A stretch of 32,303 bases of DNA. Source: Methanolobus vulcani (GTDB lineage Archaea > Halobacteriota > Methanosarcinia > Methanosarcinales > Methanosarcinaceae). The notes beneath the pieces were generated by a model. It was given only the letters and a program-made list of their open reading frames with translations. It did not search any database and was not told the origin of the DNA. Numbering within the stretch: the first letter of the stretch is position 1; every line of letters begins with the position of its first letter. Where the stretch lies: the NCBI RefSeq assembly GCF_006546655.1, contig NZ_VIAQ01000001.1, forward strand, positions 1 through 32,303, given 5' to 3'. Positions 3,004 through 32,303 of the stretch are shown one piece after another. Position numbers and translations under genes: made by a program.

Positions 3004-3040
3004 ATTTTAACTAATAATAATACGGAGAATACTAATATTA

Positions 3041-8208: not shown

Positions 8209-8210
8209 TT

Positions 8211-8224: not shown

Positions 8225-8268
8225 ATACTGATTTAGATGTACACATCATTAGAATAATAGATTGAACT

Positions 8269-9873: not shown

Positions 9874-10158
9874 TGTTCACAGCATTCATATATGGTTAGG
9901 AGTGAACTGTTATTTAAAGTTATATAGATGATAGCATATCATAATAATGATAATACAAATAATACAATGAACAATTGTATATCAGTTAACTAAAATATCC
10001 ATAAACATAATTGGTATAAAGGTATATGCTTATATATAAATTCTGTAAACTTATAATTGACATATTTGAGGCATTCTATTGTAATTATGGACTATAAATT
10101 TTAAAAGTGGTTTCAAGTTGAATCAGCACAATGTTATCTGATATGATTTAAAGATTAG
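9874..10158. other. Divergent promoter region (zinc-ribbon gene / cbiZ)
   Basis: A 285-base A+T-rich gap between divergent genes. Minus strand: CTTTAAATA (rc of 9911-9919) lies about 40 bases before the zinc-ribbon gene start. Plus strand: a strong TATA box at 10029-10040 serves the cbiZ operon. I see no cobalamin riboswitch features such as a B12-box, and no long hairpin. Confidence 0.45.
10029..10040 (+). promoter_or_regulatory. TATA box of the cbiZ-ABC transporter operon
   Basis: CTTATATATAAA is close to the archaeal TATA consensus. Transcription would start near 10065, leaving a leader of about 90-110 bases before cbiZ. Confidence 0.5.
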
Positions 10159-11355: not shown

Positions 11356-12569
11356 AAACGAAGGTTATTCTGGTTTTGTTAATCGCAATATCATGTATCC
11401 TTATGTCTGGATGCATGGGGGAGAGTATCTCAGAAGATAATGATTCCATAGAAGATACATATGACCCCACAATGGACTATTTTCCTGATAAGGTAGATGT
11501 TGAATATGCAATTGGTTTCTCTGTGGAATACCACAATAACTACAAATTTGTTACAGTCACTGACCCAAAAACAAGTGTTGAATATTCTTATGTTCTTGTC
11601 CAGAAAGGAACTCCGGTCCCCGAAGGTTACAGCGATTCACTTGTAGTGGAAATTCCTGTTGAAAGCATAGTTGCACTTCCCATATCACATATCCCTGCTC
11701 TTGACGTTATAGGGGAGGTTGACAAGCTCAAAGCTGTAGGTAATTTCAATTATGTTAACTCTGTTCCGGTAAGAGAACTCATAGAAGAAGGAGCTGTGGA
11801 AGAGGTGGGAAGTGGGAATGAAGTAAATGTGGAATCAATAGTAGAAATCAATCCCGACATTGTTTCGACTCTTACCACTGATATGACAGGTAGTGACGAG
11901 TATATATTCGCCCTTAAGGATATGGGCCTAAAACCCGTGAGTACATGTGAATCAAAAGAAGAATCACCTCTTGGCAGGGCAGAGTGGGTAAAGTTCATGT
12001 CTCTTTTCTTTAACGATGAAAAGAAAGCAAATGAATATTTCGCAAAGGTTTCCGAAAATTATACAGAAATGGCCCAGCTAGCAAATAACGTTGAGGAAAG
12101 ACCTATTGTTATGGCAGAATATGCATTACGTGGTACATGGTACGCTCCTGGAGGAAACAGCTTCATTGCACAATTCGTCAAAGATGCCGGAGGTGTCTAC
12201 CTGTGGGAAAATGATAATAACACGGAGAGCTTTGAACTTGATTTTGAATATGTCTTAGATAAAGGAAAAGATTCGGATTATTGGTTCGTATCAGCTGACT
12301 GGGATAGCATTGAAGCTATGGAGTCTTATGATCCATTGTACCTGGAATTCAATCCTGCCAAGACCGGGAATGTATACACATGCTATTACAGGGTATATGA
12401 TACTGGTGAGGATGGTGGATATGGTGGCAATGATTACTATGAATCGGGAGTTTTAAGGCCCGATATAGTTCTTGCGGATTATATAAAGATACTTCATCCG
12501 GAGCTGTTACCGGATTATGAGCTGTATTACCATAAGCAACTAGAGTCAACAAGCGAGGATAGTGAATAA
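11352..12569 (+). CDS. Corrinoid (BtuF/FecB-type) ABC transporter substrate-binding lipoprotein
   Basis: A 405-residue extracytoplasmic binding protein. The N-terminus is a lipoprotein signal, MKTKVILVLLIAISCILMSGC, with Cys21 as the likely lipidated residue after the lipobox MSG. The mature protein has the two-lobe class III fold pattern: IPVESIVALPISHIPALDVIG and VESIVEINPDIVSTL for the first lobe, then a helical linker (FMSLFFNDEKKANEYFAKVS) and ERPIVMAEYALRGTWYAPGG for the second. An acidic stretch follows the lipid anchor. It is longer than a typical BtuF (about 270 residues). It is coupled by overlaps to cbiZ upstream and the permease downstream. Corrinoid as substrate is inferred from cbiZ; iron-siderophore binding by the same fold cannot be excluded. 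Confidence 0.85.
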   Translation: MKTKVILVLLIAISCILMSGCMGESISEDNDSIEDTYDPTMDYFPDKVDVEYAIGFSVEYHNNYKFVTVTDPKTSVEYSYVLVQKGTPVPEGYSDSLVVEIPVESIVALPISHIPALDVIGEVDKLKAVGNFNYVNSVPVRELIEEGAVEEVGSGNEVNVESIVEINPDIVSTLTTDMTGSDEYIFALKDMGLKPVSTCESKEESPLGRAEWVKFMSLFFNDEKKANEYFAKVSENYTEMAQLANNVEERPIVMAEYALRGTWYAPGGNSFIAQFVKDAGGVYLWENDNNTESFELDFEYVLDKGKDSDYWFVSADWDSIEAMESYDPLYLEFNPAKTGNVYTCYYRVYDTGEDGGYGGNDYYESGVLRPDIVLADYIKILHPELLPDYELYYHKQLESTSEDSE

Positions 12570-13645
12570 TGAAAGTTAATGAGCGGGGTTGGGACAGCTC
12601 ATCCAGAGCTGTTCTGCTCATGGTTTTTTCCCTGGCTGCATTATTCATATTCTTCATGCTAGACCTGATTTTGGGGTCGGTAAATATACCTTTCCAGGAT
12701 ACTCTGGCAATACTGCTGGGTAATAAAATGGTAAATGATTCGTGGCAGATCATAATCATGGATATGAGGCTTCCAAAAGCATTTGCAGCGGCATTTGGTG
12801 GTGCTGCACTGGCAGTTGCCGGTCTTCTAATGCAGACCCTGTTCAGAAATCCTCTTGCAGGTCCATTTACTCTTGGTATTAGCTCTGGTGCAAGTCTTGG
12901 AGTTGCTATTGTAATTCTTCTGGTGGGAGGTGGAACAGCAACAACGATTCCTCAAATGCTTGCCGGTCTTGGTTCCTTTGGAAGTGCAGCAGTTGCTATA
13001 GCTGCTTTTGCGGGTTCATCAGCAGTGCTTATGATAGTACTTTTTATATCACGCAAAGTAGAGAGCAGTGTGACAATACTGATTCTGGGATTAATGTTTG
13101 GTTATGCTGCAACTTCTTTAGTTACTATACTTGTACATTTCAGCGATCCTGAAAAAGTTAAAGCATTTACCGAATGGACTTACGGTAGTTTTGACATAAG
13201 ATGTGCCGAGGTTAGCATACTTGTTCCAATCATATCAATTGCCCTGATTTCCTCATTTTTGCTCATCAAACCTCTAAATGCTTTGCTTCTGGGAGAAAAA
13301 TATGCAGAAAGCATGGGGATGAACTTTAAAACAACACGACACTATCTTATTATTATTACTGCATTGCTTGCAGGAACTGTTACTGCATTCTGTGGTCCCA
13401 TTGCTTTCCTTGGGGTTGCTGTACCTCATCTTTGCAGGGGGCTTTTTTTAACTGCAGACCACAGGATACTCGTACCGGGATGTATCATTCTTGGTGGTAG
13501 TCTTGCATTGTTCTCCGACTTGGTAGCACATCTTCCAGGGAGTAATCTTACACTTCCATTAAGTGCCGTAACCTCTATGCTCGGAGCGCCGGTCATAATA
13601 TGGGTGGTACTTCGGGGTAACAAATTAGGAGGGATGCAAGCATGA
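12569..13645 (+). CDS. Corrinoid (BtuC/FecCD-type) ABC transporter permease
   Basis: A 358-residue membrane protein with about ten hydrophobic helices, matching the FecCD/BtuC family. Signatures include MDMRLPKAFAAAFGGAALAV, AGLLMQTLFRNPLAGPFTLG, GISSGASLG, and the C-terminal FCGPIAFLGVAVPHLCRG. The latter contains the family's GPIAFLGL-PH pattern near the ATPase-coupling region. Translation is coupled: the preceding stop and this ATG overlap as TAATG, and its own TGA overlaps the next ATG. It would form the dimeric channel for the lipoprotein's ligand. Confidence 0.92.
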   Translation: MKVNERGWDSSSRAVLLMVFSLAALFIFFMLDLILGSVNIPFQDTLAILLGNKMVNDSWQIIIMDMRLPKAFAAAFGGAALAVAGLLMQTLFRNPLAGPFTLGISSGASLGVAIVILLVGGGTATTIPQMLAGLGSFGSAAVAIAAFAGSSAVLMIVLFISRKVESSVTILILGLMFGYAATSLVTILVHFSDPEKVKAFTEWTYGSFDIRCAEVSILVPIISIALISSFLLIKPLNALLLGEKYAESMGMNFKTTRHYLIIITALLAGTVTAFCGPIAFLGVAVPHLCRGLFLTADHRILVPGCIILGGSLALFSDLVAHLPGSNLTLPLSAVTSMLGAPVIIWVVLRGNKLGGMQA

Positions 13646-14748
13646 AAGAAAAGCCACTGTTATCTGCATGTGATTTATCTATCGGATACACTACTCGGAA
13701 GAAAACTCAAAAAGTTATTTCTGAAAACCTGAACCTGGAGCTTGTACCGGGAGAACTTGTTTGCCTGATAGGGCCGAACGGTGCAGGCAAATCCACATTA
13801 ATAAGAACTCTTATTGGTATGCAGCCATCTTTAACGGGAGACATTTCTCTTATGAATAGACCTCTTGAAGATTTTACTGCTATGGAAAAAGCAAGGGTTC
13901 TGAGTGTAGTGTTGACATCTAATACCAATATTTCTCATTTCAGAGCTTTCGATGTTGTGGCCCTGGGTCGTTATCCATATACAGGCTGGTCCGGAACACT
14001 GTCTGAAGAGGACAAAAAGATCGTTTCTTTTTCTTTGGATTCTGTGGGGGCTACTGAACTTTCCAATCGATTTATGTCTGAGCTAAGTGACGGAGAAAAA
14101 CAAAAAGTAATGATCGCACGCGGACTGGCACAGGACCCTTCGATACTTGTGCTAGATGAACCTACTGCTTTTCTCGATCTCCCTCACAAGATCGAGGTAA
14201 TAAGGATACTTAAATCCCTTTCAAGACATCCGGGGAGAGCTGTGCTGTTATCTATCCATGACCTTGATATCGCCATGCGCACAGCTGACAGAATATGGCT
14301 GTTCAATAAGAAAGGGGAGTTCTTTTCAGGATCTCCTGAAGACCTTATATTACAGGGTGTTTTTGGCTCTGCTTTTGCAATGGGGGGAGTTCATTTCGAC
14401 AACGAAAAGGGGACTTTCATAATCCCTCCTGAAAAGAAGGGTGATGCCAATCTCCTGGGAAACAATGGTGTCGAGCGTATCTGGACAGCGCATGCACTTG
14501 AACGTGCAGGCTATTGTATTTCTAAAGACAATAGCAGTAGCATAACGATCGAGATCGGGAACAATTCAGGGAATACTTGCTGGAAATGTATGAACGGGGA
14601 GCCTGAAAGGGAATTTCCATCAATTGCCGATATGATCAAGTATATCAATCAGATTCATGAGAACAAAGATTCAAAAAAACAGCTACCTGTTGATCTCATT
14701 GATCAGGAATTCGATAATACAATAGTTGATGAGGTATGCTTAACATGA
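13642..14748 (+). CDS. Corrinoid (BtuD/FecE-type) ABC transporter ATPase with C-terminal extension
   Basis: A 368-residue ATPase. Walker A is GPNGAGKST (residues 44-52), the signature is LSDGEKQK, Walker B is ILVLDEPT with a following D-loop, and the switch histidine is in LSIHDLD. A ribosome-binding site GGAGG lies nine bases before the ATG, inside the permease gene. The ABC domain ends near residue 255. About 110 further residues follow, including a CWKC pair (Cys313, Cys316) and a stretch that runs GVERIWTAHALERAGYCIS. Longer cobalamin ATPases of this kind exist in methanogens, as far as I recall, but the extension's job is unknown. It could be a regulatory or redox/metal-sensing tail. Its end overlaps the SUMF1-type gene. 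Confidence 0.9.
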   Translation: MKEKPLLSACDLSIGYTTRKKTQKVISENLNLELVPGELVCLIGPNGAGKSTLIRTLIGMQPSLTGDISLMNRPLEDFTAMEKARVLSVVLTSNTNISHFRAFDVVALGRYPYTGWSGTLSEEDKKIVSFSLDSVGATELSNRFMSELSDGEKQKVMIARGLAQDPSILVLDEPTAFLDLPHKIEVIRILKSLSRHPGRAVLLSIHDLDIAMRTADRIWLFNKKGEFFSGSPEDLILQGVFGSAFAMGGVHFDNEKGTFIIPPEKKGDANLLGNNGVERIWTAHALERAGYCISKDNSSSITIEIGNNSGNTCWKCMNGEPEREFPSIADMIKYINQIHENKDSKKQLPVDLIDQEFDNTIVDEVCLT

Positions 14749-19002: not shown

Positions 19003-22000
19003 TTATTTTTGCCTCCTGAATCCTGCATACATTATTCCAACAACAACAAGTAGCAGTATCGAAGCTACAATATCCGAACTTGAAAAACCACTTCCCGAAT
19101 TACCACTTTCGCTATTATCCTGACTTGCTACTGTCATTTCATAGCCTTCTACGTAGTTATCAGGGGTGGATTGATCGCTTGCAGGGGAATCAAGGTCCAG
19201 GCCAGCACCACTATCCGCAGAACTCGTTGTCTGATTTGTGGCTCCTGTTCCACTACTGGACCGGTGGGTTGCTTCCTCCATGATTCTGCTATATTCTGCA
19301 GCTGTTGCCTCACCAACAACACTAGACATCTGACTCTGGATATACGCATCCAGTGGTATATTTCCACATGTGTGGTGGCAACATGTAACTCCATTTTCGA
19401 CAACAGATTCTACATATTCTTTTATCAGAGCTTCTAGAACCTCGTCTGGTGCATCCCAGTATCCGGTACGTTCAGCATCGATCAATCTCGCTGCAATTGA
19501 CTGTTGTGAGTTTGGATATTCTGCGAATGCTTCATCCATTCCAATGTCGTATTTATCGTTGAATAGCACATCATAGACCTCATCCCAATTTGAATCCGAT
19601 ATCAGATCTGTGGTCACATCCATACCATACATATTTTCAACTCTTCTCGTAATCGTTCTCATTCCTGCATAATCAGCTTCTACCTGTCCTGTATTCCATG
19701 TCGGGTTGAAGATTGTGCTTCTTAGTTCAGTTTTAAGAGCTTCATTCAGTGTCATGATCTCCGACTTAGATTCTACTTCCTGATTTGCGATGTACAACTC
19801 CGGCATCTCTCCTGTAAGAACCTCCACAGTCATTCCAACGGATCCCAGATAAGCAGCGTAATCACCACCATCAAGCATACCGAACAAGTTCGTCGAGTCA
19901 CTGTGAATAGCAGCATCGACATCCATCAGGTTCAGTGTGAACAGGTCTTCATGAGAATCTCCCCATACATCCTGTCCGTAAGTATAGGAGGATGTCGAAA
20001 TAAATAGATCTGCAAGTTCTGACTCATTATCCCATGTCTCAGTTGCTGCTATTGCATCTTCCATACGATTGCCATAATTTCCATTTGCCTCACTGAAAAT
20101 CCTGCATTGGGACAGATAATGTGCCTGAGTTTCATTATAACCCATTCCCAGAAGCTCCTCTTCCATGGCAAGTGAGTTTCTTCTGACATAATTATCTTCA
20201 CTGCTTTCGTTCAGTTCTGCAACCGTCCTGACAGCTTCATCAAACAGTTCTACCTGATATGGGAATGTGTCTCTGTACAAACCAGACATATCCACCATTA
20301 CATCAATTCTTGGATGAGTCATTTCCTCCACAGGTATGACCTCAAAGCCGATAATACGTCCATCATCCCTTACAGGTGTAACTCCAAGTAATGAATGTAT
20401 CTGAGCTTCCATGAGTCCACCATGACGCAGTGTTTCCATTGCCCACATTGTATATGATATCTTATCCGGATAGGCACTATGCTCGGCATAATATTTCTCT
20501 ACCAGCTGATCTGCAAGAATCGCACCCATTGCACTCTTCTCTTCATCAGGGAATTTCCTCTGGTCAAAACCATAGAAGTTCCTTCCAGTCGGCAAAGCAT
20601 CCGGATTACGTACCGGGTCATTTCCTACGCCTGGTTCTATGTACTCTGCATCAAGGGCCCGTATGAACTGATCGATCTCACGAGTTGTCATAGCAATCTC
20701 ATCAGAATACTCAACTGCAAGTTCAAGGTCAGCAGTGACATTGACATCTGTGAATCCAAGTACCTGGAGCTGAGCATCCGATACACTCGTTCCGTAGAGT
20801 ATAGTCTCATTCAAAAGCAACATTGCATCCGCATCCGCTTCATCCTCCCAGTCCTCTTCAGTTCCACTATCCTTTGGCAGAACATCACATATGTGGCCTG
20901 TGAAATCATCGTTCAACATTGATTTGATCATACAGACAAGCATCTCACCTTCTGGTGCCACACCAAAGGTATGGACACCGTACGGCATGAGATCCGATTG
21001 CAGATCATGGAGATAGTCATGAACAGTATTACTGACAAAGCCCTCAAAGGTATCATCTGTCATATTACACAATTCATCAGTGGAAACTTCCAGATCCTCA
21101 CCTATACTGAGATTACCATACAGTTGTGTTACTGTGTCCCTGTACATTGATGCCATTGCATCTTCTCCAAGACTACGTGAGTCCGTATAACTGTGTATCT
21201 TGTCGTGTAGTTCGGCAAGCTCACCATACAGACCCGCTTCGATTATTGGCGGGGTCAGATGGTCTATCATGACCGCAAATCCACGGTGTTTGGCCTGGCT
21301 GCCTTCACCTACATTGTCCATGATGTATGGATATATGATCGGTGTGTCATCAGCACAAATGGATGGATAATCATATTCCCATAGTCCAACTTCTTTTCCT
21401 GGCGACCATTCAAGCGTACCATGGCAACCGAAGTGAACAATGGCATCAGCGTCATACACCTGGTTGATCCAGTAATATGTTGCCAGATACTGATGTGTAA
21501 GAGGTATTGTTGAATTGTGGTACATCAATGATTCATCAGATTCAATGGCTTTGGTTGGTTGCGGAATGAAATTAACATTTCCAAGTTGTACCGTGGGTAT
21601 TACAAAGTATTCTCCACTTTCATTCTCATAGACCATTATGTCACCAGGCGCTTCGCCCCATGTTTCCTCTACTTCGTCCCTGATCGATTCCGGCAGGGTG
21701 TTGTACCATGGCAGGTAGTCCTCAACAGGCAAGAGAGTTACCAGTCCTGATTCGACAACCTCCTCCAGTTCTCCCGGAGCCCATGCACCAATAGTCCTGC
21801 TGGTTAGGAAAAGGTCAATAAACTCGCTTCCGTTAGGTATGCCGTCGTTTCCAATGTCGTACCCTTCTGCTTCCATTCTTTCAAGCAGTAATGTAAAGCT
21901 TGGACCAATACCCAGATAGCTTGCACCAATATTGTCCTTACCACCAGCGTGGTTGTAATACAGTATACTTACTTTTTTATCTGCATTGCTGGTCCTTCCC

Positions 22001-25000
22001 AGTTCTGCCCATCCGATGGCACGATCACACAACCATTGCACTTGTCCGGTTATAGGTTGATAATATTGGGTTTCAGTACCGTCTACATATTCAGTTACAT
22101 ATCCGCTTACCCATATGAAATCAAGGCAGCCGTCTATTTCTGGCTGTGTGATCATAGAAGCCCGCATTAATACAGATGTACCTAAGACGCTGTCATAGTA
22201 ATCTTCAGGTGAAGTGAATGCATCCTGCACGGCTTTTAGTACGGGAACATTATATTTCTGCAGATATTCCACACCTTCTTCCTGATCTTCATAGTTGAGA
22301 TAGAAACTCTGCAAACTGATTATTGCATCAACAAGCACTTCACCGTCTTTTGTAAAGTAATCCACATCATCATCATCACACACCTTATTGGTAGTGTAGA
22401 TCACATTACAGCCCTTTGATTCAAGATAACGGATGATCGCATCATCAGTTGTAAGATACAGGGGCTCTTTCTGGATCTCATAAGTTATGATACCTATTGT
22501 TGGTGCAGATTCATTATATCCATGATTTGTATACCATGCCAGGTATTCAGTACTATCCTCGAAAATCATTGGGAACGCATCAGGATGATATATCCCGTCA
22601 TCAGGGATAGTAGGTTCGCCAACGGGACCATACTCAATATAAATACCTTCAATTTCAGCTCCTGCATAACGGATCATGTTTTCTATGTTTACCATGCCGC
22701 CATTGTCCATATATTCTCTTAGGACACCATGCGGAGGATTTAACAGATCTATTGTATCCAGTCCATTCGGATCTTGACTGGTAAATCCGATATCAGCCCC
22801 ATTTGCTTTGGCAGCAGATAATACGGGCAACAAATCTGTAATGTATCCTGAATCAATCATTTCCAGAATAATAAGATCTTGATCAGTTGCATCAGTAAGG
22901 TTTGCAACTGCTTCGCTGCCACCCATGACCTGTATGTTATAACGATCAGTGATCACATTTTTTTCATTAAGGACCTTTTTGAGGTCATAGATATTACATT
23001 CTGATCCGAGAATAAAAGTTACATCCAGTTTCTCATTTTTTATTACAGGTTCAGGTATTTCCTCTCCATCCCATAAGCCTGAGAAATTCTGCCCCATTAA
23101 TGTGAGCATGCTTATCATGTTAGTTTCGCCGCCCTGTATCCAGTACCTTTCGATGTCCGTATACTCATCATCGGACAGATCAATATTTGGCAGGGTTATA
23201 TTGGAAGATATATTGTATCCTATGACATTTGCACCGCCTTCTTTAGCAGACTTTATCCCTGAACTCCAGTTATCCACTGTTGACTCTTCCTGGGATTCTA
23301 TGAAAATAAGTCCATATCCGGAGAAATCAAACTCGGTTGATTCTATTTCCTCTGTGCTGACAATTGTTATGTCCAATTTATCGGATATATCAGTGTCCTG
23401 AGCTGCATTGTTCAATGCATCCTGATTGTAGTCAGTGCCAAGAATAAATAGGAATTTATTGGTGGATACGTGTACGACCCCGTCATATGATGAACATTTC
23501 ACAAATTCTGACGAATCTGATGCAAGATATACCAGCAATTCCTCTGCATTTTCCAGTCCTTCCCCCTCAGTACCCATGTTATTGTAGAGTATTGTAATAG
23601 GGTCAGTGCTCGTTCCATCTGATATGTAATCGAAGTAGTCAGGTACTGCGCTTCCCATCGGTTCCATGCCATAGAACGTTGTCGTGTCGCCGTCAATATG
23701 ACAACTGCTACAACTATCAGTGGAGGTAGGGTGTGTGGCCGGATTAATCCTGTAGAGTATTGCCCCGTTATCATGGGCATTTTCAAGGGCATTCATCACG
23801 GTCTCGTTGTTAAGAATGTTACTACCGATAAAGATAACATCCTGTGTACTCAGGTATCCAGTTTCAGCCGCATCTATTATTTCATCACTTAATGTTTTGG
23901 ATGTGGCATTGTAGAATCCAATGTAGTTGTACTCAATTAGATCACTGTGGGAGTTTGTCTCACTTGCAAGCTCCAGTGCTTCACTTTCGCTGTAAGCGAT
24001 ATAAGTGATCTTTGAATCCATGGTAAGTGAAACAAGGAGGTCCTCGGCATTTTCCAATCCTTTTACCTCTGTACTCATGTTATTGTAGAGTGTTGTGATA
24101 GGATCAGTGTTCGTTCCATCTGATGTGTAATCGAAGTAGTCAGGTGCTGTGGTTCCCATCGGTTCCATGCCATAGAGCGTTGTCGTGTCACCGTTAATAT
24201 GGCAACTGCTACAACTATCGGCCTCACTATCACTCTCGGTGTTCTCCATGTGTAAGAGTTCCATCAACCAAGATAACATGTTACTCAGGATACTTACATG
24301 AGGAGTGCTACAACTCTCAGGTATGCCCAGATTTATCCTGTAGACCATTGTCCCGTTATCATGGGCATTTTCAAGGGCACTCATCACGGTCTCGTTGTTA
24401 AGAAGACTACTACCTATAAAGATAACATCCTGTGTTCTCAGGTATCCGGTTTCAGCCGCATCTATTATTTCATCACTTAATGTCCCGGATGTGGCATTGT
24501 AGAATCCAATGTAGTTGTACTCAATTAGATCACTGTGAGAGTTTGTCTCACTTGCAAGCTCCAGCGCTTCGCTTTCACTGTAAGCGATGTAGGTGATCCT
24601 GGATCCCATAGTAAGTGAAACAAGAAGGTCCTCGGCATTTTCCAGTCCTTCACCCTCAGTACCCATGTTATTGTAGAGTGTTGTAATAGGGTCAGTATTC
24701 GTTCCATCTGATGTGTAATCGAAGTAGTCAGGTGGCGTGGCCCCCATTGGTTGAATACTGTAAAGCACTGTACCATCATTGTGAGCATCTTCAAGGGCAT
24801 TCATTATGATCTCATTGTCAAGAATATCACTGTAGAATGAGCTTATAAGAATCGTATCCTGTGTACCCAGGTATCCTGTCTCAGCCGCATCTATTATTTC
24901 ATCACTTAATGTCTTGGTCGTGGCATTGTAGAAGCCAATGTAGTTGTACTCGATCAGATCACTGTGGGAGTTTGTCTCACTTGCAAGCTCCAGCGCTTCG

Positions 25001-25551
25001 CTTTCACTGTATGCGATGTAGGTGATCTTGGATCCCATGGTAAGTGAAACAAGAAGTTCCTCTGCGTTTTCCAGTCCTTCTCCCTCAGTACCCATGTTAT
25101 TGTAGAGTGTTGTAATAGGGTCAGTGCTCGTTACATCTGATGTGTAATCGAAGTAATCAGGTGGCGTGGCTCCCAATGGTTGAATACTGTAAAGCACTGT
25201 ACCATCATTGTGAGCATCTTCCAGAGCATCCATTATGGTCTCATTGTCAAGAATACCACTGTAGAATGAGGTAATAAGAATCGTATCCTGTGTACTCAGG
25301 TATCCAGTTGCAGCCGCATCTATTATTTCATCACTTAATGTCTTGGATGTGGCATTGTAGAATCCAATGTAGTTGTACTCAATTAGATCACTGTGGTAGT
25401 TCGTCTCACTTGCAAGCTCCAGCGCTTCGCTTTCACTGTAAGCGATGTAGGTTATTTTTGTTTTTTGTTCGTTTGCTGATACAACTGGTATTGATACCAG
25501 TATAACTAATAATAAACTGAAGAATATCAGTTTGTTCGTGATCTTATGAAT
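19003..25551 (-). CDS. Giant surface-anchored CobN-like protein 1 with repeats and CXXCH motifs
   Basis: About 2182 residues, far longer than ordinary CobN (about 1200-1300). Order: signal peptide (basic IHKITNK, hydrophobic LIFFSLLLVILVSIPVV, cut after VSA); four similar repeats (residues 32-677); two divergent related modules (about 698-840 and 841-1000); a CobN/magnesium-chelatase large-subunit domain from about 1018 (GIITYEIQKEPLYLTTDD); the core motif HFGCHGTLEWSPGKE at 1373 and YPYIMDNVGEGSQAKHRGFA; CCHHTC at 2057-2062; a Ser/Thr linker; and a final helix IVASILLLVVVGIMYAG before RRQK. Repeats 3 and 4 each contain CSSCH. No in-frame ATG, GTG or TTG precedes the signal peptide; ATT at 25551 with GGTGGT is the best start. 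The first ATG (25233) would remove the signal. The protein should be exported and anchored, so ordinary ATP-driven cobalt insertion is doubtful. Confidence 0.85.
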   Translation of the reverse strand: MHKITNKLIFFSLLLVILVSIPVVSANEQKTKITYIAYSESEALELASETNYHSDLIEYNYIGFYNATSKTLSDEIIDAAATGYLSTQDTILITSFYSGILDNETIMDALEDAHNDGTVLYSIQPLGATPPDYFDYTSDVTSTDPITTLYNNMGTEGEGLENAEELLVSLTMGSKITYIAYSESEALELASETNSHSDLIEYNYIGFYNATTKTLSDEIIDAAETGYLGTQDTILISSFYSDILDNEIIMNALEDAHNDGTVLYSIQPMGATPPDYFDYTSDGTNTDPITTLYNNMGTEGEGLENAEDLLVSLTMGSRITYIAYSESEALELASETNSHSDLIEYNYIGFYNATSGTLSDEIIDAAETGYLRTQDVIFIGSSLLNNETVMSALENAHDNGTMVYRINLGIPESCSTPHVSILSNMLSWLMELLHMENTESDSEADSCSSCHINGDTTTLYGMEPMGTTAPDYFDYTSDGTNTDPITTLYNNMSTEVKGLENAEDLLVSLTMDSKITYIAYSESEALELASETNSHSDLIEYNYIGFYNATSKTLSDEIIDAAETGYLSTQDVIFIGSNILNNETVMNALENAHDNGAILYRINPATHPTSTDSCSSCHIDGDTTTFYGMEPMGSAVPDYFDYISDGTSTDPITILYNNMGTEGEGLENAEELLVYLASDSSEFVKCSSYDGVVHVSTNKFLFILGTDYNQDALNNAAQDTDISDKLDITIVSTEEIESTEFDFSGYGLIFIESQEESTVDNWSSGIKSAKEGGANVIGYNISSNITLPNIDLSDDEYTDIERYWIQGGETNMISMLTLMGQNFSGLWDGEEIPEPVIKNEKLDVTFILGSECNIYDLKKVLNEKNVITDRYNIQVMGGSEAVANLTDATDQDLIILEMIDSGYITDLLPVLSAAKANGADIGFTSQDPNGLDTIDLLNPPHGVLREYMDNGGMVNIENMIRYAGAEIEGIYIEYGPVGEPTIPDDGIYHPDAFPMIFEDSTEYLAWYTNHGYNESAPTIGIITYEIQKEPLYLTTDDAIIRYLESKGCNVIYTTNKVCDDDDVDYFTKDGEVLVDAIISLQSFYLNYEDQEEGVEYLQKYNVPVLKAVQDAFTSPEDYYDSVLGTSVLMRASMITQPEIDGCLDFIWVSGYVTEYVDGTETQYYQPITGQVQWLCDRAIGWAELGRTSNADKKVSILYYNHAGGKDNIGASYLGIGPSFTLLLERMEAEGYDIGNDGIPNGSEFIDLFLTSRTIGAWAPGELEEVVESGLVTLLPVEDYLPWYNTLPESIRDEVEETWGEAPGDIMVYENESGEYFVIPTVQLGNVNFIPQPTKAIESDESLMYHNSTIPLTHQYLATYYWINQVYDADAIVHFGCHGTLEWSPGKEVGLWEYDYPSICADDTPIIYPYIMDNVGEGSQAKHRGFAVMIDHLTPPIIEAGLYGELAELHDKIHSYTDSRSLGEDAMASMYRDTVTQLYGNLSIGEDLEVSTDELCNMTDDTFEGFVSNTVHDYLHDLQSDLMPYGVHTFGVAPEGEMLVCMIKSMLNDDFTGHICDVLPKDSGTEEDWEDEADADAMLLLNETILYGTSVSDAQLQVLGFTDVNVTADLELAVEYSDEIAMTTREIDQFIRALDAEYIEPGVGNDPVRNPDALPTGRNFYGFDQRKFPDEEKSAMGAILADQLVEKYYAEHSAYPDKISYTMWAMETLRHGGLMEAQIHSLLGVTPVRDDGRIIGFEVIPVEEMTHPRIDVMVDMSGLYRDTFPYQVELFDEAVRTVAELNESSEDNYVRRNSLAMEEELLGMGYNETQAHYLSQCRIFSEANGNYGNRMEDAIAATETWDNESELADLFISTSSYTYGQDVWGDSHEDLFTLNLMDVDAAIHSDSTNLFGMLDGGDYAAYLGSVGMTVEVLTGEMPELYIANQEVESKSEIMTLNEALKTELRSTIFNPTWNTGQVEADYAGMRTITRRVENMYGMDVTTDLISDSNWDEVYDVLFNDKYDIGMDEAFAEYPNSQQSIAARLIDAERTGYWDAPDEVLEALIKEYVESVVENGVTCCHHTCGNIPLDAYIQSQMSSVVGEATAAEYSRIMEEATHRSSSGTGATNQTTSSADSGAGLDLDSPASDQSTPDNYVEGYEMTVASQDNSESGNSGSGFSSSDIVASILLLVVVGIMYAGFRRQK
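23530..25458 (-). repeat. Four tandem repeats coding the N-terminal modules of CobN-like protein 1
   Basis: Boundaries at the recurring motif (K/R)ITYIAYSESEALELASE: 25030-25458 (143 residues), 24601-25029 (143), 24013-24600 (196) and about 23530-24012 (about 161). Each unit runs from ITYIAYSESEAL through IEYNYIGFYNAT, DEIIDAA-TGYL, an IxIxS strand, ALE-AH, PDYFDYxSD, DPITxLYNNM and GLENAE-LLV. The third and fourth carry insertions with CSSCH. Confidence 0.9.
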
Positions 25552-25560
25552 ATTACCACC
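25549..25560 (-). promoter_or_regulatory. Ribosome-binding site and probable ATT start of CobN-like gene 1
   Basis: On the minus strand GGTGGT-AAT-ATT. The same GGTGGT, three bases before the start, is found at the ATG of the membrane-protein gene at 503. A TGA lies six codons farther upstream in frame, with no ATG, GTG or TTG between it and the signal peptide. Confidence 0.5.
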
Positions 25561-25623
25561 AACTGTATATCAAGAGTATCATTTGGAAATACTGCACTTG
25601 TATGACTAACACCTAAGATTAAT

Positions 25624-25642
25624 ATATCACATAGTGTGATAT
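25624..25642. promoter_or_regulatory. Perfect inverted repeat, candidate operator for CobN-like gene 1
   Basis: ATATCACA-TAG-TGTGATAT, two perfect 8-bp arms around three bases. It ends about 73 bases before the ATT start. A TATA-like AATAAATAT (minus strand, about 25640-25648) directly precedes and overlaps it. A bound repressor would then cover the region between TATA box and transcription start. Confidence 0.5.
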
Positions 25643-25826
25643 TTATTGCATATTTCAAAATGGATGTCGTTTTTTAATAATTGTATATTGTGAAATTAAA
25701 ACTATTTATTTCCAAAAAGGATAATGATAGTTCATGTAAATAAAGTATTTGTTTTGTATATACAATTAGATACACATTATAAATAAAAAAATATTAAAAT
25801 ATAAATCACATGTTTGACAGTTTTCA

Positions 25827-25855
25827 CTCTTTAATAAAGAGAATTGTCACAATTC
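25827..25855. promoter_or_regulatory. Two adjacent perfect palindromes
   Basis: CTCTTTAATAAAGAG (25827-25841) shares its last base with GAATTGTCACAATTC (25841-25855). Each has 6-bp arms and a 3-base centre. No gene ends here on either strand, so paired regulator sites are more likely than terminators. The role is unknown. Confidence 0.35.
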
Positions 25856-25970
25856 TTGATAATTTCAGATCACACAGAACAAAAGACAGTGTTTACTTTG
25901 CATTGGAAAACAATATTTAATTGATTTATTTAAAGTGTTTCATGTATATTATTTGGATGGAAATGGTATT

Positions 25971-26071
25971 ATGAAGATTATTGATCATACCCACAAGGAC
26001 TTTGTACAGGTCATTAATCTAAGGCTGTATTGTCTGAGCAGTTCATAAGTGCCATAAACTATCACCAGTTA
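25971..26071 (+). repeat. Duplicated flank, copy 2 (frame MKIIDHTHKDFVQV)
   Basis: Resembles 18849-18956 and stands at the same place relative to the second CobN-like gene. The plus-strand frame MKIIDHTHKDFVQVINL is shorter (25 codons, stop at 26046-26048). AGTGCCATAAACT is shared near the end of both copies. Confidence 0.45.
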
Positions 26072-26147
26072 GTGATGTAAAGCAAGATATAATTTTTTAT
26101 TATAAAAGAAGTCACTTTAAGCACAAAATAAATACTTAATTCGTATA

Positions 26148-26181
26148 TAAAAAAAGAAAAGGCACTCATTCAAAGTGCCTT
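26148..26181 (-). terminator. Terminator of the second CobN-like gene
   Basis: On the minus strand GGCACTTTGAATGAGTGCC is followed by TTTTCTTTTTTT. It has the same stem as the terminator of the first copy, with one loop change, and begins 15 bases after the stop. Confidence 0.65.
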
Positions 26182-26193
26182 AAAGCAATCTGG

Positions 26194-29100
26194 TTATTTT
26201 TGTCTCCTGAATCCTGCGTACATTATTCCAACAGTAACAAGCAGCAGTATAGAAGCTACAATATCCGAACTTGAAAAACCACTTCCAGAATTTCCATTAT
26301 CACTATTATCCTGACTTGCTACTGTCATTTCATAACCTTCGACGTAGTTATCAGGGGTGGATTGATCGTTTGCAGGGGAATCAAGATCCAGGCCTGCACC
26401 GCTATCAGCGGAACTCGTAGTCTGATTTGTAGTTCCTGTACTTGCAGATTGACTGGAGGAACGGTGGGTTGCTTCCTCCATGAGTCTGCTATATTCTGCG
26501 GCGGTTGCCTCACCAACAACACTAGACATCTGACTCTGGATATACTCATCCAGTGGTATATTTCCACATGTGTGGTGGCAACATGTAACTCCATTTTCGA
26601 CAACAGATTCTACATATTCTTTTACCAGAGCTTCTAGAACCTCGTCTGGTGCATCCCAATATCCAGTACGTTCAGCATCGATCATTCTCGCTGCAATTGA
26701 CTGTTGTGAGTATGGATATTCTGCAAATGCTTCATCCATTCCAATGTCGTATTTATCGTTGAATAGCACATCATAGACCTCATCCCAATTTGAATCCGAT
26801 ACAAGATCTGTGGTCACATCCATGCCATACATATTTTCAACTCTTCTTGTAATCTCTCTCATTCCTGCATAGTCAGCTTCTACCTGTCCTGTGTTCCATG
26901 TCGGGTTGAATATTGTGCTTCTTAATTCTGTTTTCAGTTCCTCATTCATAGTCATGATCTCCGACTTAGATTCTATTTCCTGATTTGCGATGTACAACTC
27001 TGGCATCTCTCCTGTAAGAGCCTCCACAGTCATTCCAACTGATCCCAGATAACTATAGTATCCATCACCATCAAGCAGACCGAACAAGTTTGTCGAGTCA
27101 CTGTGAATAGCAGCATCGACATCCATCAGGTTCAGTGTGAACAGGTCTTCATGACTCTCTCCCCATATCTCCTGTCCGTAGGTATAGGAGGATGTCGAAA
27201 TAAATAGATCTGCAAGTTCTGACTCATTTTCCCATGTATCAGTTGATGTTATTGCATCTTCCATTCCATTGTCATAATTTCCATTTGCCTCACTGAAAAT
27301 CCTGCATTGGGACAGATAATGTGCCTGAGTTTCATTATAACCCATTTCCAGAAGCTCCTCTTCCATGGCAAGTGAGTTCCTTCGGACATAATTATCTTCA
27401 CTGCTTTCGTTCAGTTCTGCAACCGTCCTGACAGCTTCATCAAATAGTTCTACCTGATATGCGAATGTGTCTCTGTACAAACCGGATATATCCAGCATTA
27501 CATCAATTCTTGGATGAGTCATTTCTTCCAGAGGTATGACCTCAAAACCGGTAATTCGGCCATCATCCCTTATAGGGGTAACTCCAAGCAATGAATGTAT
27601 CTGAGCTTCCATGAGTCCGCCATGACGCAGTGTTTCCATAACCCACATTGTATATGATATCTTATCCGGATAGGCACTATGCTCGGCATAATATTTCTCT
27701 ACCAGCTGATCTGCAAGAATCGCACCCATTGCACTCTTCTCTTCATCAGGGAATTTCCTCTGGTCAAAACCATAGAAGTTCCTTCCAGTCGGCAAAGCAT
27801 CCGGATTACGTACCGGATCATTTCCAACACCTGGTTCTATGTACTCTGCATCAAGGGCCCGTATGAACTGATCGATCTCACGAGTTGTCATAGCAATTTC
27901 ATCAGAATACTCAATTGCAAGTTCAAGGTCAGCAGTGACATTGACATCTGTGAATCCAAGTACCTGGAGCTGAGCATCCGATACACTCGTTCCGTAGAGT
28001 ATAGTCTCATTCAAAAGCAACATTGCATCCGCATCCGCTTCATCCTCCCAGTCCTCTTCAGTTCCACTATCCTTTGGCAGAACATCACATATGTGGCCTG
28101 TGAAATCATCGTTCAACATTGATTTGATCATACAGACAAGCATCTCATCTTCTGGTGCCACACCAAAGGTATGGACACCGTATGGCATGAGATCCGATTG
28201 CAGATCATGGAGATAATCATGAACATCATTACTGACAAAGTCCTCAAAGGTATCATCTGTCATGTTATACAATTCACCAGTTGAAACTTCCAGGTCCTCG
28301 CCTATACTAAGATTGCCATATAGTTCTATCACTGTGTCCTTGTACATTGATGCCATTGAATCTTCTCCAAGGCTACGTGAGTCTGTATAACTGTGTATCT
28401 TGTCGTGTAGTTCGGCAAGCTCACCATACAGACCCGCTTCAATTATCGGCGGGGTCAGATGGTCTATCATGACCGCAAATCCACGGTGTTTGGCCTGGCT
28501 GCCTTCACCTACATTGTCCATGATGTATGGATATATGATCGGTGTGTCATCAGCACAAATGGATGGGTAATCATATTCCCATAGTCCAATTTCTTTTCCT
28601 GGCGACCATTCAAGCGTACCATGGCAACCGAAGTGAACAATAGCATCAGCGTCATACACCTGGTTGATCCAGTAATATGTTGCCAGGTACTGATGTGTAA
28701 GAGGTATTGTTGAATTGTGGTATATCAATGATTCATCAGATAGCTTGGCTTTGGTTGGTTGTGGAATGAAATTAACATTTCCAAGTTGTACCGTGGGTAT
28801 TACAAAGTATTCTCCACTTTTATTCTCATAGACCATTATGTCACCAGGTGCTTCTCCCCATGTTTCCTCGACTTCGTCCCTGATCGATTCCGGCAGGGTG
28901 TTGTACCATGGCAGGTATTCCTCTACAGGGAAAAGAGTTACAAGTCCTGATTCGACAACCTTTTCGAGTTCACCAGGTGCCCATGCACCACAATTCCTGC
29001 TGGTTATGAAAAGGTCAATGAACTCGCTACCGTTAGGTATGCCGTCATTTCCAATGTCGTATCCTTCTGCCTCCATTCTTTCAAGCAGTAATGTAAAGCT

Positions 29101-32100
29101 TGCACCAATATCCAGATAGCTTGCACCAATATTATCCTTACCACCTTTGTGGTTGTAATACAGTATACTTACTTTTTTATCTGCATTGCTGGTCCTTCCC
29201 AGTTCTGCCCATCCGATGGCACGATCACACATCCATTGCAGTTGTCCGGGTATAGGTTGATAATATTGAGTTGCGGTTGTACCGTCTACATATTCAGTTA
29301 CGTATCCGCTGACCCATATGAAATCAAGGCAGCCGTCTATTTCTGGCTGTGTGACCGAAGAAGCCCGCATTAATACAGATGTACCAAAGGTGCTGTTATA
29401 GTAATCTTCAGGTGAAGTAAATGCATCCTGCACGGCTTTTAGTACGGGAACATTATATTTCTGCAGATATTCCACACCTTCTTCCTGATCCTCATAGTTG
29501 ATATAGAAACATTGCAAACTGATTATTGCATCAACAAGCACTTCACCGTCTTTTGTAAAGTAATCCACATCATCTTCACACACCTTGCTGGTAGAGTAGA
29601 TCACATTACAGCCCTTTGATTCAAGATAACGGATGATCGCATCATCAGTTGTAAGATACAGGGGCTCTTTCTGAATCTCATAATTTATGATCCCTATTGT
29701 TGGTGCAGATTCATTATATCCATGATCTGCATACCATGCCAGATATTCAGTACTATCACCGAAAACCATTGGGAATGCATCAGGATGATAGATCCCGTCA
29801 TCAGGGATAGTTGGTTCTCCAACGGGATCGTACTCAATATAAATACCTCCTATTTCAGCTCCTGCGTAACGGATCATGTTTTCTATGTTTTTCATGCCTC
29901 CATTGTCCATATATTCTTTTAGGACACTATGCGGAGGATCTATCATATTTATTGTATCCAGTCCATTTGGATCCGGGGTGCTAAATCCGATCTCAGCACC
30001 ATTTGCTTTGGCAATAGATAATACGGGCACCAGTTTTGCAATTTCTGCGGCTCCTATCATATCCAGAAGAATAATATCCTGATCAGTTGCATCAGTAAGG
30101 TTTGCAATTGCTTCGCTGCCATCCATGACCTGTATGTTATAGCGGTCAGTGATCACGTTTGTTTCTTCAAGGATCTTATCGACGTAATATACATTACATT
30201 CTGATCCGAAAATCAAAGTTATATCCAGTTTTTCATTCATTATCACAGGTTCAGGTATTTCATCCTCTTTCCATAAGCCGGAGAAATTCTGCCCCATTAA
30301 TGTGAGCATGCTTCTCATGTTAGTTTCGCCGCCCTGTATCCAGTACCTTTCGATGTCCGTATACTCAGCATCGGACAGATCGATATTTGGCAGGGTGATA
30401 TTGGAAGATATATTGTAACCTATGACATTTGCACCGCCTTCTTTAGCAGACTTTATTTCTGAAGTCCAGCCATCCACTGTTGACTCATCCTGGGATTCTA
30501 TGAAAATAAGTCCATATCCTGAGAAATCAAACTCGTTTGATCCCATATCCTCTGTGCTGACGATCGTTATGTCCAAGTTATCGGATATATCAGTGTCCTG
30601 GGCTGCGTTTTTCAAAGCGTCCTGATTGTAGTCAGTGCCAAGAACAAATAGGAATTTATTGCTGGATACGTGTACGACTCCGTTATATGATGAACTTTTC
30701 ACAAATTCTGACGAATCTGATGCAAGATATACCAGCAATTCCTCTGCATTTTCCAGTCCTTCTCCCTCAGTACTCATACTATTGTAGAGTGTTGTGATAG
30801 GATCAGTGTTCGTTCCATCTGATATGTAATCGAAGTAGTCAGGTGCTGTTGTTTCCATTGGCTCCATGCCATAGAACGTTGTTGTGTCACCGTCAATATG
30901 ACAACTGCTACAACTCTCAGTGGAGGTTGGGTGTGTGGCAGGATCTATCCTGTAGAGCTTTGCCCCGTTATCATGGGCAATTTCAAGGGCATTCATCACT
31001 GTTTCGTTGTTAAGAATACCACTACCGATAAAGATAACATCCTGTGTGCTCAGGTATCCTGTCTCAGCAGCATCTATTATCTCCTCACTTAATGTCTTGG
31101 ATGTGACATTGTAGTATCCAATGCAGTTGTACTCAATTAGATCACTGAGGGAGTTTGTCTCACTTGCAAGTTGTAAAGCTTCGCTTTCGCTGTAAGCGAT
31201 GTAAGTGATCTTGGAACCTATGGTCTGTGAAACAAGAAGTTCTTCTGCATTTTCCAGTCCATCTTCCTCTGTACTCATATTATTGTAGAGTGCTGTAATG
31301 GGGTCAGTGTTCGTTCCATCTGATATGTAATCGAAGTAGTCAAGTGCTGTTGTTCCCATCGATTCTATGCCATAGAGCGTTGTTGTGTCACCGTTTATAT
31401 GGCAACTGCTACAACTTTCACTTTCACTTTCACTCTCGGTTGGTTCCATGTGTAAGAGTTCCATCAACCAGGATAACAGTTTACTCAGGCTACTTACCTG
31501 AGTACTGCTACAACTCTCAGGTATGCCTGGATTAATCCTGTAGAGTATTGCCCCGTTATCATGGGCATTTTCAAGGGCGCTCATTACGGTCTCGTTGTTA
31601 AGAATACCACTGCCAATAAAGATAACATCCTGTGTACTCAGGTATCCAGTTTCAGCTGCATCTATTATTTCCTCACTTAATGTCTTGGTCGTGGCATTGT
31701 AGAATCCAATGTAGTTGTACTCGATCAGATCACTGTGGGAGTTTGTCTCACTTGCAAGTTGCAAAGCTTCGCTTTCACTGTAGGCGATGTAGGTGATCTT
31801 AGATCCCATGGTAAGTGAAACAAGAAGTTCCTCTGCATTTTCCAGTCCTTCCACATCAATTCCTATGTTATTGTAGAGTGTTGTAATAGGATCAGTGTTC
31901 GTTCCATCTGATGTGTAATCGAAGTAATTAGGCGGATTAGCTCCCATTGGTTGGATGCTGTAAAGCACTGTACCATCATTGTGAGCATCTTCCAGAGCAT
32001 TCATTATGATCTCATTGTCAAGAATATCACTGTAGAATGAGGTTATAAGAATCGTATCCTGTGTACCCAGGTATCCTGTCTCAGCCGCATCTATTATTTC

Positions 32101-32303
32101 ATCACTTAATGTCCCGGATGTGGCATTGTAGAATCCAATGTAGTTGTACTCAATTAAATCACAGTGAGAGTTTGTCTCACTTGCAAGCTCCAGCGCTTCG
32201 CTTTCAATGTAAGCGATATAAGTGATCTTTGATCCCATAGTAAGTGAAACTAGAAGGTCCTCGGCATTTTTCAGTCCTTTCACATCAGTTCCCATGTTAT
32301 TGT
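26194..32303 (-). CDS. Giant surface-anchored CobN-like protein 2 (N-terminus outside window)
   Basis: The frame stays open to the window edge, giving at least 2035 residues. The signal peptide and the first repeat are presumably beyond it. The visible part matches CobN-like protein 1 throughout: three repeats (32229 down to about 30730), two divergent modules, the CobN domain with HFGCHGTLEWSPGKE, the CCHHTC motif (26566-26583), a slightly longer Ser/Thr linker and the C-terminal helix before RRQK. CSSCH occurs at 31399-31413 and 30898-30912. The offset to copy 1 is exactly 7,200 bases over most of the length, with long identical stretches in the CobN core and more differences in the divergent modules. 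It has its own terminator and lies upstream of copy 1 on the same strand. By location it should work outside the cell. Substrate (corrinoid, heme, other tetrapyrrole or free metal) is unknown. Confidence 0.85.
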   Translation of the reverse strand, partial: NNMGTDVKGLKNAEDLLVSLTMGSKITYIAYIESEALELASETNSHCDLIEYNYIGFYNATSGTLSDEIIDAAETGYLGTQDTILITSFYSDILDNEIIMNALEDAHNDGTVLYSIQPMGANPPNYFDYTSDGTNTDPITTLYNNIGIDVEGLENAEELLVSLTMGSKITYIAYSESEALQLASETNSHSDLIEYNYIGFYNATTKTLSEEIIDAAETGYLSTQDVIFIGSGILNNETVMSALENAHDNGAILYRINPGIPESCSSTQVSSLSKLLSWLMELLHMEPTESESESESCSSCHINGDTTTLYGIESMGTTALDYFDYISDGTNTDPITALYNNMSTEEDGLENAEELLVSQTIGSKITYIAYSESEALQLASETNSLSDLIEYNCIGYYNVTSKTLSEEIIDAAETGYLSTQDVIFIGSGILNNETVMNALEIAHDNGAKLYRIDPATHPTSTESCSSCHIDGDTTTFYGMEPMETTAPDYFDYISDGTNTDPITTLYNSMSTEGEGLENAEELLVYLASDSSEFVKSSSYNGVVHVSSNKFLFVLGTDYNQDALKNAAQDTDISDNLDITIVSTEDMGSNEFDFSGYGLIFIESQDESTVDGWTSEIKSAKEGGANVIGYNISSNITLPNIDLSDAEYTDIERYWIQGGETNMRSMLTLMGQNFSGLWKEDEIPEPVIMNEKLDITLIFGSECNVYYVDKILEETNVITDRYNIQVMDGSEAIANLTDATDQDIILLDMIGAAEIAKLVPVLSIAKANGAEIGFSTPDPNGLDTINMIDPPHSVLKEYMDNGGMKNIENMIRYAGAEIGGIYIEYDPVGEPTIPDDGIYHPDAFPMVFGDSTEYLAWYADHGYNESAPTIGIINYEIQKEPLYLTTDDAIIRYLESKGCNVIYSTSKVCEDDVDYFTKDGEVLVDAIISLQCFYINYEDQEEGVEYLQKYNVPVLKAVQDAFTSPEDYYNSTFGTSVLMRASSVTQPEIDGCLDFIWVSGYVTEYVDGTTATQYYQPIPGQLQWMCDRAIGWAELGRTSNADKKVSILYYNHKGGKDNIGASYLDIGASFTLLLERMEAEGYDIGNDGIPNGSEFIDLFITSRNCGAWAPGELEKVVESGLVTLFPVEEYLPWYNTLPESIRDEVEETWGEAPGDIMVYENKSGEYFVIPTVQLGNVNFIPQPTKAKLSDESLIYHNSTIPLTHQYLATYYWINQVYDADAIVHFGCHGTLEWSPGKEIGLWEYDYPSICADDTPIIYPYIMDNVGEGSQAKHRGFAVMIDHLTPPIIEAGLYGELAELHDKIHSYTDSRSLGEDSMASMYKDTVIELYGNLSIGEDLEVSTGELYNMTDDTFEDFVSNDVHDYLHDLQSDLMPYGVHTFGVAPEDEMLVCMIKSMLNDDFTGHICDVLPKDSGTEEDWEDEADADAMLLLNETILYGTSVSDAQLQVLGFTDVNVTADLELAIEYSDEIAMTTREIDQFIRALDAEYIEPGVGNDPVRNPDALPTGRNFYGFDQRKFPDEEKSAMGAILADQLVEKYYAEHSAYPDKISYTMWVMETLRHGGLMEAQIHSLLGVTPIRDDGRITGFEVIPLEEMTHPRIDVMLDISGLYRDTFAYQVELFDEAVRTVAELNESSEDNYVRRNSLAMEEELLEMGYNETQAHYLSQCRIFSEANGNYDNGMEDAITSTDTWENESELADLFISTSSYTYGQEIWGESHEDLFTLNLMDVDAAIHSDSTNLFGLLDGDGYYSYLGSVGMTVEALTGEMPELYIANQEIESKSEIMTMNEELKTELRSTIFNPTWNTGQVEADYAGMREITRRVENMYGMDVTTDLVSDSNWDEVYDVLFNDKYDIGMDEAFAEYPYSQQSIAARMIDAERTGYWDAPDEVLEALVKEYVESVVENGVTCCHHTCGNIPLDEYIQSQMSSVVGEATAAEYSRLMEEATHRSSSQSASTGTTNQTTSSADSGAGLDLDSPANDQSTPDNYVEGYEMTVASQDNSDNGNSGSGFSSSDIVASILLLVTVGIMYAGFRRQK
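30730..32229 (-). repeat. Repeats coding the N-terminal modules of CobN-like protein 2
   Basis: Units 31801-32229 (143 residues), 31213-31800 (196) and about 30730-31212 (about 161) match the second to fourth units of copy 1 in order and length. The end of one more unit (NNMGTDVKGLKNAEDLLVSL) is seen at the window edge, so at least four units existed before the split of the two genes. Confidence 0.88.

Follow-up and report, generated by a model that had tools for sequence, protein, structure and literature searches.

What does a protein with the body of a cobaltochelatase do when it carries signals for export? The question is raised by two tandem genes on the reverse strand of a stretch of Methanolobus vulcani DNA, contig NZ_VIAQ01000001.1, which we refer to as the window (32,303 bases; it constitutes an entire contig, C20, of a genome of 2.92 Mb in 20 contigs). 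Judged by their sequences, the two proteins are not cobaltochelatases; they are members of the exported BtuS/HmuS type of CobN, the third type known. We read them, with a probability of about 0.62, as proteins that salvage tetrapyrroles or their metals outside the cell together with ExbB, DUF2149 and DUF2162 partners and without CobST or ChlID.

Architecture and family placement

A preliminary description of this DNA had reported two tandem CobN-domain genes encoding more than 2000 amino acids (aa) each, with a C-terminal helix followed by RRQK, and this picture stands. Both proteins match PF02514 over its full length (gathering cut-off 24.5 bits, scores 1054 and 1069 bits; profile positions 2-1089 of 1090) and both terminate in a hydrophobic helix and then RRQK. 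Gene 1 occupies positions 19003-25233 (2076 aa) if counted from its first ATG, and its frame stays open to about 25569; gene 2 (26194-32301, 2035 aa) is still open at the window end and, because the window is the whole contig, is truncated by the end of the assembly. The common layout comprises N-terminal repeats, two head units (H1 and H2), the PF02514 body, the motif TCCHHTCGN, a Ser/Asp-rich linker and the C-terminal helix with RRQK. The protein cores are 93% identical, and a ratio of non-synonymous to synonymous substitution rates (dN/dS) of 0.26 between the copies, overall and in the body, indicates purifying selection. Contig C7 of the same genome holds the 5′ end of another copy, 92% identical in DNA; a join between C7 and the window's right end was rejected, since the ends differ (89% identity over 284 bp).

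Homology to HmuS, a proven heme dechelatase of gut bacteria (PMC12583661), is shown by the search against solved structures, in which HmuS was nearest by score (421 bits), followed by ChlH (404) and CobN (384), and in which the HmuS match reached further upstream than the other two, into the head domain. The clade is shown by a tree of 94 bodies (quick search, unrooted, long branches present), where 77 sequences, namely HmuS, bacterial proteins linked to TonB receptors and archaeal surface proteins, were separated from 17 BchH and cytoplasmic CobN sequences with a Shimodaira–Hasegawa-like approximate likelihood ratio (SH-aLRT) value of 100. Not one of the CobN/BchH equivalog cut-offs was reached by the window copies, which scored 536 and 551 bits with the CobN equivalog TIGR02257 (cut-off 822) and 1104 and 1112 bits with NF004645, the model named CobN (cut-off 1619). 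A cytoplasmic CobN from Methanolobus passes TIGR02257. One surface paralogue of the same genome, of class A in the scheme given below, passes NF004645 with 2588 bits, so the name CobN in the databases is inherited rather than tested.

BtuS is already recognised as a third, exported type of CobN (PMC6460266), and the third type is traced there to Rodionov 2003. For M. barkeri, two BtuS proteins were noted, and the whole operon was said to be missing; the levels of these proteins on Fe(II)/Cys and on FeS2 exceeded those on Fe(II)/HS- (PMC10846266). The function of archaeal CobN homologues was called unclear in the 2025 paper on HmuS (PMC12583661).

Export signals and ATPase partners

Read from its first ATG (25233), which falls within the first repeat unit, gene 1 has no signal peptide. 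One is predicted upstream in frame (IHKITNKLIFFSLLLVILVSIPVVSA/NEQKT), where no ATG, GTG or TTG start was found and the codon at the start position, 25551, is ATT. The C7 copy (L164) has ATT at the identical position and the same signal peptide, and four of the five base differences between window and C7 in this segment fall at third codon positions; therefore, the peptide is probably translated. Two relatives (L032, and L083 from M. psychrotolerans) have a signal peptide at the equivalent place, with an ATG start. Taken together, the signal peptide seen on the complete copy in the preliminary description is very probably real, given an unusual ATT start, and ATT seems to be the start codon in both the window and the C7 copy, where the relatives use ATG.

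Export and anchor signals characterize almost the entire surface class. A hydrophobic N-terminus was present in 57/60 of its members vs 1/12 of the cytoplasmic CobN proteins, and a C-terminal helix in 61/63 vs 0/12. Per 1000 aa, surface-class proteins of these archaea contain 17.3 sequons and cytoplasmic ones 2.6 (observed/expected 1.9 vs 0.7); gene 1 itself lies below the class level (26 vs 19 expected). The signal peptide, the single C-terminal helix with its positive tail and the sequon excess of the class argue that the body lies outside the cell, as the preliminary description had proposed. The best explanation is that both proteins are type I membrane proteins with an entirely extracellular body and one C-terminal helix as anchor.

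If the body is outside, cytoplasmic AAA+ subunits could not reach it. Consistently with the proposed independence from CobS/T or ChlI/D ATPases, no partner of the ChlI/ChlD or CobS/T type was found near surface-class genes (0/67 loci), compared with ChlI/D at 5/12 of the cytoplasmic CobN loci. ATP is likely not used by the surface class, which does not imply that it acts without energy. The view that the window proteins are ordinary cytoplasmic cobaltochelatases, with a miscalled start or a spurious signal peptide, could draw on the NCBI naming, the class A paralogue that passes NF004645, the need for an ATT start and the presence of a ChlI-ChlD pair in the genome. We regard it as highly improbable, because the window copies stay below every CobN/BchH equivalog cut-off, whereas a cytoplasmic Methanolobus CobN is above that of TIGR02257, and because the export and anchor signals, the sequons and the split in the tree all speak for the surface.

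Active-site motifs, paralogue classes and repeats

The catalytic His538 of HmuS has its equivalent in both window copies, where the motif HFG(T/A)HG reads HFGCHG, with the His kept and Cys at the T/A position. The equivalents of His538 and Glu577 are both retained, as are 47 of the 49 columns invariant in the superfamily. The second motif, LSLDHxxEFMGG with His1209 and Glu1212 in HmuS, is absent from the window copies. Thus, the window class combines an intact body with an altered second face of the pocket, and catalysis is less sure than binding because the motif at the position of His1209 and Glu1212 is changed.

Sorting by these two motifs gave six classes of paralogues. Class A has NMGRHG/LDTDDFYQYMGG, class B HFGTHG/DNDDxYQYLGG and class C HLGTHGTHEW/DNDDFFQYFGG, and the acidic D-D motif of these three is that of cytoplasmic CobN. 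Class E is the window class (HFGCHG with LDGGDYAAYLGS or LDGDGYYSYLGS), and class F combines HFGRHG or HFGQHG with a motif of the FDHVYEFFGG type. The class F copy of this genome, on contig C14, has HFGRHG and FDHVYEFFGG and therewith the His and Glu of the HmuS type. The diversity of paralogues within one array would fit a division of labour between substrates. Class D, in which HFGTHG is replaced by FTIFSS, has lost the catalytic His and 8 of the invariant columns; this pseudo-chelatase is conserved in six genomes. Two further observations concern single genes: the class F protein on C14 (L009, 11292-17903, G000:C14) has adhesin-like repeats inserted within its chelatase body, and a decayed CobN-like gene with several stops lies near DUF2162 and DUF2149 genes at G007:C2:1868772-1872008.

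Another reading takes the window proteins for non-catalytic tetrapyrrole receptors or decoys, with the fold kept, the chemistry lost and the proteins serving as a binding array at the surface. The second motif is altered in 4/4 members of the window class, class D persists in six proteins despite its lost His, and head-like units are multiplied. The 47 of 49 invariant columns, the intact His538/Glu577 equivalents and the dN/dS of 0.26 in the body, a sign of purifying selection, run counter to this idea, which we take seriously while doubting it.

In the head region, H2 matched residues 63-172 of 9d26 (HmuS) with phmmer, and profile comparison supports H1 and H2 as a duplicated head domain. Upstream of them lie four 143-aa units. 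Homology of these units to the head domains by sequence alone was rejected (H2, 31%; HmuS head, 2%), and no sequence match for them was found in the PDB. A model made with AlphaFold2 (AF2; predicted local distance difference test, pLDDT, 60) gave a four-stranded alpha/beta domain with two C-terminal helices, in the order of strands and helices described for the HmuS head. The HmuS head ranked third among its structural matches (Z 7.2), in a tie that included dehydroquinases and sugar-binding lobes. Similar scores came from other Rossmann-like folds, and a relationship to the HmuS head by fold is only suggestive.

Insertions in these units carry the CSSCH motifs, two per window copy. The M. psychrotolerans orthologue has one CxxCH, as CSDCH, and the G001 orthologue has none. 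Two marks of a c-type cytochrome are present: the window copies, which are predicted to be exported, contain CxxCH, and the genome encodes CcmA, CcmB, CcmC and CcmF for cytochrome c maturation. Covalent heme is therefore possible, and heme c may be bound at the CSSCH motifs. One could go further and picture the window class as surface demetallases with built-in c-type hemes, in which the CSSCH repeats carry electrons to a site of reductive metal removal, the cassette powers or reduces, and the paralogues divide Fe, Co and Ni among themselves; we consider this a long shot.

Partner genes, proposed function and known systems

On contig C18 of the same genome, DUF2162, ExbB, DUF2149 and CobN form one intact operon in this order. 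In most Methanolobus loci examined, this trio precedes a tandem series of one to five CobN-like genes, and the arrangement recurs in ANME-2/Methanosarcinales metagenome-assembled genomes (ANME, anaerobic methanotrophic archaea) and, with one CobN, in Trichlorobacter. Within 8 kb, ExbB and DUF2149 were each found at 41/67 surface-class loci and DUF2162 at 33/67, compared with 1/12, 0/12 and 0/12 for cytoplasmic CobN; these loci were gathered via a CobN search, many are cut off where a contig ends, and genomes that are related do not count as independent. The co-occurrence in Methanosarcinales to which the preliminary description had pointed, with DUF2162 and ExbB-like genes, was confirmed. Across 40 Methanosarcinales genomes, related ones again not being independent and PF02514 including cytoplasmic CobN, DUF2149 was present in 29/29 with PF02514 and 4/11 without (p=2e-5), and DUF2162 in 28/29 and 2/11.

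In the hmu operon, two of the cassette proteins, ExbB and DUF2149, go by the names HmuU and HmuV: Bacteroides hmu operons carry both, and the order in Bacteroidota is CobN(HmuS)-HmuT-ExbB(HmuU)-DUF2149(HmuV) (PMC10434189). The slot of HmuT is occupied by DUF2162 in the archaeal cassette. DUF2162 was rejected as a HmuT homologue (hhalign probability 1.1%). Its model (pLDDT 63) resembled 6-helix halves of carriers of the major facilitator superfamily type with Z 9-11, and no conclusion on the fold is drawn because such values lie below the informative level for helical bundles. A plasmid search with DUF2162 gave no match, and the term DUF2162 was not found in the literature searched. At L057 and L065 (G001 and G020), class F CobN comes with a separate, diverged DUF2162-ExbB-DUF2149 set, with 51% identity in DUF2162, as a parallel second system within one genome. 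A Runella slithyformis plasmid (L074, 2374-14275) holds ExbB-DUF2149-CobN, a TonB receptor and a NicO/DsbD-like protein inside a hypF-hypC-hypD-hypE cluster, and this setting within hydrogenase maturation genes suggests a nickel-related substrate.

Salvage outside the cell would then proceed as follows. The chelatase body and the duplicated head domains would bind a metallo-tetrapyrrole, i.e., heme, corrinoids or Ni-tetrapyrroles, whose metal would be removed or exchanged or whose ring would be presented for salvage. The ExbB/DUF2149/DUF2162 device, probably driven by the membrane potential, would act on the outside, the ExbB-type complex, as is presumably the case for HmuU/V, providing work or coupling conformations across the membrane. 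Freed metal or ring would enter through separate importers. We infer the tetrapyrrole substrate, the de-metallation, the direction of the reaction and the energising or coupling by ExbB.

Several points weigh against this reading. The substrate of the archaeal members is proposed from homology and context, and for BtuS of B. fragilis the catalytic role was itself disputed (PMC6460266). The second metal-facing motif of the window class is altered (LDGGDYAAYLGS / LDGDGYYSYLGS vs LSLDHVYEFMGG in HmuS), and the site-1 heme ligands Met79 and His254 of HmuS align with Ile and with Ser or Cys, in a divergent part where the alignment is less sure. No ExbB/DUF2149 comes directly after the window pair, and a cut DUF2162 is the sole cassette gene on the contig; at its start, contig C14 shows 96% identity to the end of the C18 DUF2149, and a second trio near the window, broken by the assembly, is plausible. 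Finally, the genome holds one ChlI-ChlD pair (contig C16, L157 7308-10152), unlinked to any CobN, and no cytoplasmic CobN was found in this genome. The predicted location of the pair is across the membrane from a surface CobN.

The same residues bear on a strict dechelatase of the HmuS type, one that would take the iron out of heme outside the cell and leave the uptake of Fe(II) to a ferrous-iron transporter. HmuS is the closest solved relative, ExbB and DUF2149 are common to both systems, BtuS levels of M. barkeri shift with the Fe/S source (PMC10846266), and the C14 paralogue retains FDHVYEFFGG and HFGRHG. The window copies, however, have neither the His1209/Glu1212 pair nor the Met79/His254 ligands, the long methionine-rich insertion of HmuS is missing (about 71 residues between the aligned halves vs about 230 in HmuS), and HmuT is absent, DUF2162 being unrelated to it. 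We consider strict heme-iron dechelation unlikely.

Corrinoids come into question through the CbiZ, BtuF, BtuC and BtuD genes of the window, 4-9 kb from the CobN pair. The preliminary description had suggested that the CobN-like proteins hand over to this ABC transporter, which did not hold up: among the 67 surface-class loci only the window has BtuF and BtuC nearby, the genes lie on the opposite strand with pilin genes between, and in another Methanolobus the orthologous BtuFCD genes adjoin cytoplasmic CobN. BtuFCD was rejected as a conserved partner, and because the neighbourhood is not conserved these genes are a poor guide to the substrate. Capture of corrinoids, or stripping or insertion of cobalt, outside the cell and feeding CbiZ-BtuFCD has further backing in the Trichlorobacter cassette (CobN 35% identical), which adjoins cobT, bzaF and TonB receptors, and in the acidic D-D motif that classes A-C share with cytoplasmic CobN; we consider this reading unlikely too. 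As an observation in its own right, L058 (G007:C2:2760000-2779999, 1-10984) joins BtuFCD orthologues, a fused NifH-NifD (735 aa), a 430-aa NifD-like protein, CbiK and cytoplasmic CobN, a nitrogenase-like and chelatase cluster adjoining a B12-type transporter.

Features of the window and loci of class D genes (positions in the window unless a locus is named)
Feature	Position	Strand	Remark
CobN/HmuS-like surface protein, gene 1	19003-25551	-	2182 codons from ATT at 25551
Predicted signal peptide IHKITNKLIFFSLLLVILVSIPVVSA, gene 1	25474-25551	-	ATT start; kept in C7 copy
Four tandem 143-aa-type units, two enlarged by insertion, gene 1	23512-25458	-	Tandem Repeats Finder (TRF) period 429
CSSCH, heme-c-like, gene 1 residues 447-451	24199-24213	-	
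CSSCH, heme-c-like, gene 1 residues 614-618	23698-23712	-	
Extra head-domain unit H1, gene 1	23068-23460	-	hhalign: vs H2 97.6%, vs HmuS head 87.6%
Head-domain unit H2, gene 1	22621-23037	-	counterpart of HmuS domain I; hhalign vs HmuS head 94.3%
CobN/Mg-chelatase body, gene 1	19438-22716	-	PF02514
HFGCHG motif, gene 1	21418-21435	-	second His (His1377 of gene 1) corresponds to HmuS catalytic His538
TCCHHTCGN motif, gene 1	19360-19386	-	aligns with SCSGFVCDN of HmuS
C-terminal membrane helix preceding RRQK, gene 1	19018-19074	-	
CobN/HmuS-like surface protein, gene 2	26194-32303	-	5′ end outside window
CSSCH, gene 2	31399-31413	-	
CSSCH, gene 2	30898-30912	-	
CobN/Mg-chelatase body, gene 2	26638-29916	-	PF02514
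DUF2162 membrane protein, cut by contig end	3-503	-	98.2% DNA-identical to C18 DUF2162
ArsR-type regulator	2416-2964	-	CobN link only inferred
CbiZ, BtuF-like, BtuC, BtuD corrinoid-salvage genes	10159-14748	+	CobN link not conserved elsewhere
Class D CobN-like	L033 9062-13339; L036 3373-7635; L037 3328-7614		
Class D CobN-like, continued	L040 1138-5457; L055 5369-9688; L082 12899-17485		

Elsewhere in the window, pilin-like proteins are encoded at 3041-8208 together with a TadA-like ATPase and a TadC-like membrane protein, in an operon that resembles a Tad/type IV pilus system, and a formylglycine-generating-enzyme-like protein (PF03781, 14736-15500) overlaps the end of btuD. Contig C7 has another ArsR-type gene, upstream of its CobN copy.

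With this placement, a large set of methanogen and ANME CobN proteins labelled cobaltochelatase in the databases moves to the exported BtuS/HmuS branch. Conserved motor-like partners are shown for the archaeal set, though they were earlier reported as lacking, and the residues, paralogue classes and partner genes named here give a mislabelled family a testable function. If the proposed salvage is true, methanogens would recover metals at their surface from the tetrapyrroles of dead cells (heme, B12 and possibly F430), which would bear on the supply of Fe, Co and Ni in anoxic sediments.

Compared with known systems, the window proteins share with HmuS (PDB 9d26; PMC12583661) the exported, membrane-anchored, six-domain CobN-like body and the catalytic His538 motif; the operon partners ExbB (HmuU) and DUF2149 (HmuV) are shared by their class and by the C18 paralogue. 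HmuY, HmuR, HmuT, Met79/His254 and the methionine-rich insertion belong to the HmuS system only, and the second motif differs; the window class is archaeal and adds extra head units, 143-aa repeats, CxxCH and tandem paralogues. With the BtuS family they have in common a predicted exported, membrane-attached CobN-like protein, of which methanogen members were known before; whereas the operon was said to be lacking in M. barkeri, an ExbB-DUF2149-DUF2162 cassette is found here in Methanolobus and in its relatives of ANME-2. CobN of the cytoplasmic kind, accompanied by ChlI/ChlD (Methanolobus G007 L059; Halococcus L077), shares the PF02514 body at roughly 27-30% identity but has neither signal peptide nor anchor, has its AAA+ partners adjacent and falls on the opposite side of the 77/17 split. 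The Trichlorobacter lovleyi plasmid cassette (L073) has the same order DUF2162-ExbB-DUF2149-CobN and an exported CobN of 35% identity; it differs in its TonB receptors, its TonB/ExbBD for the outer membrane, the genes for the B12 lower ligand beside it and the lack of repeats. New here are the arrays, in which as many as five divergent paralogues occur and one lacks the catalytic His, the duplication of the head, the 143-aa repeats and the CxxCH motifs in the window class.

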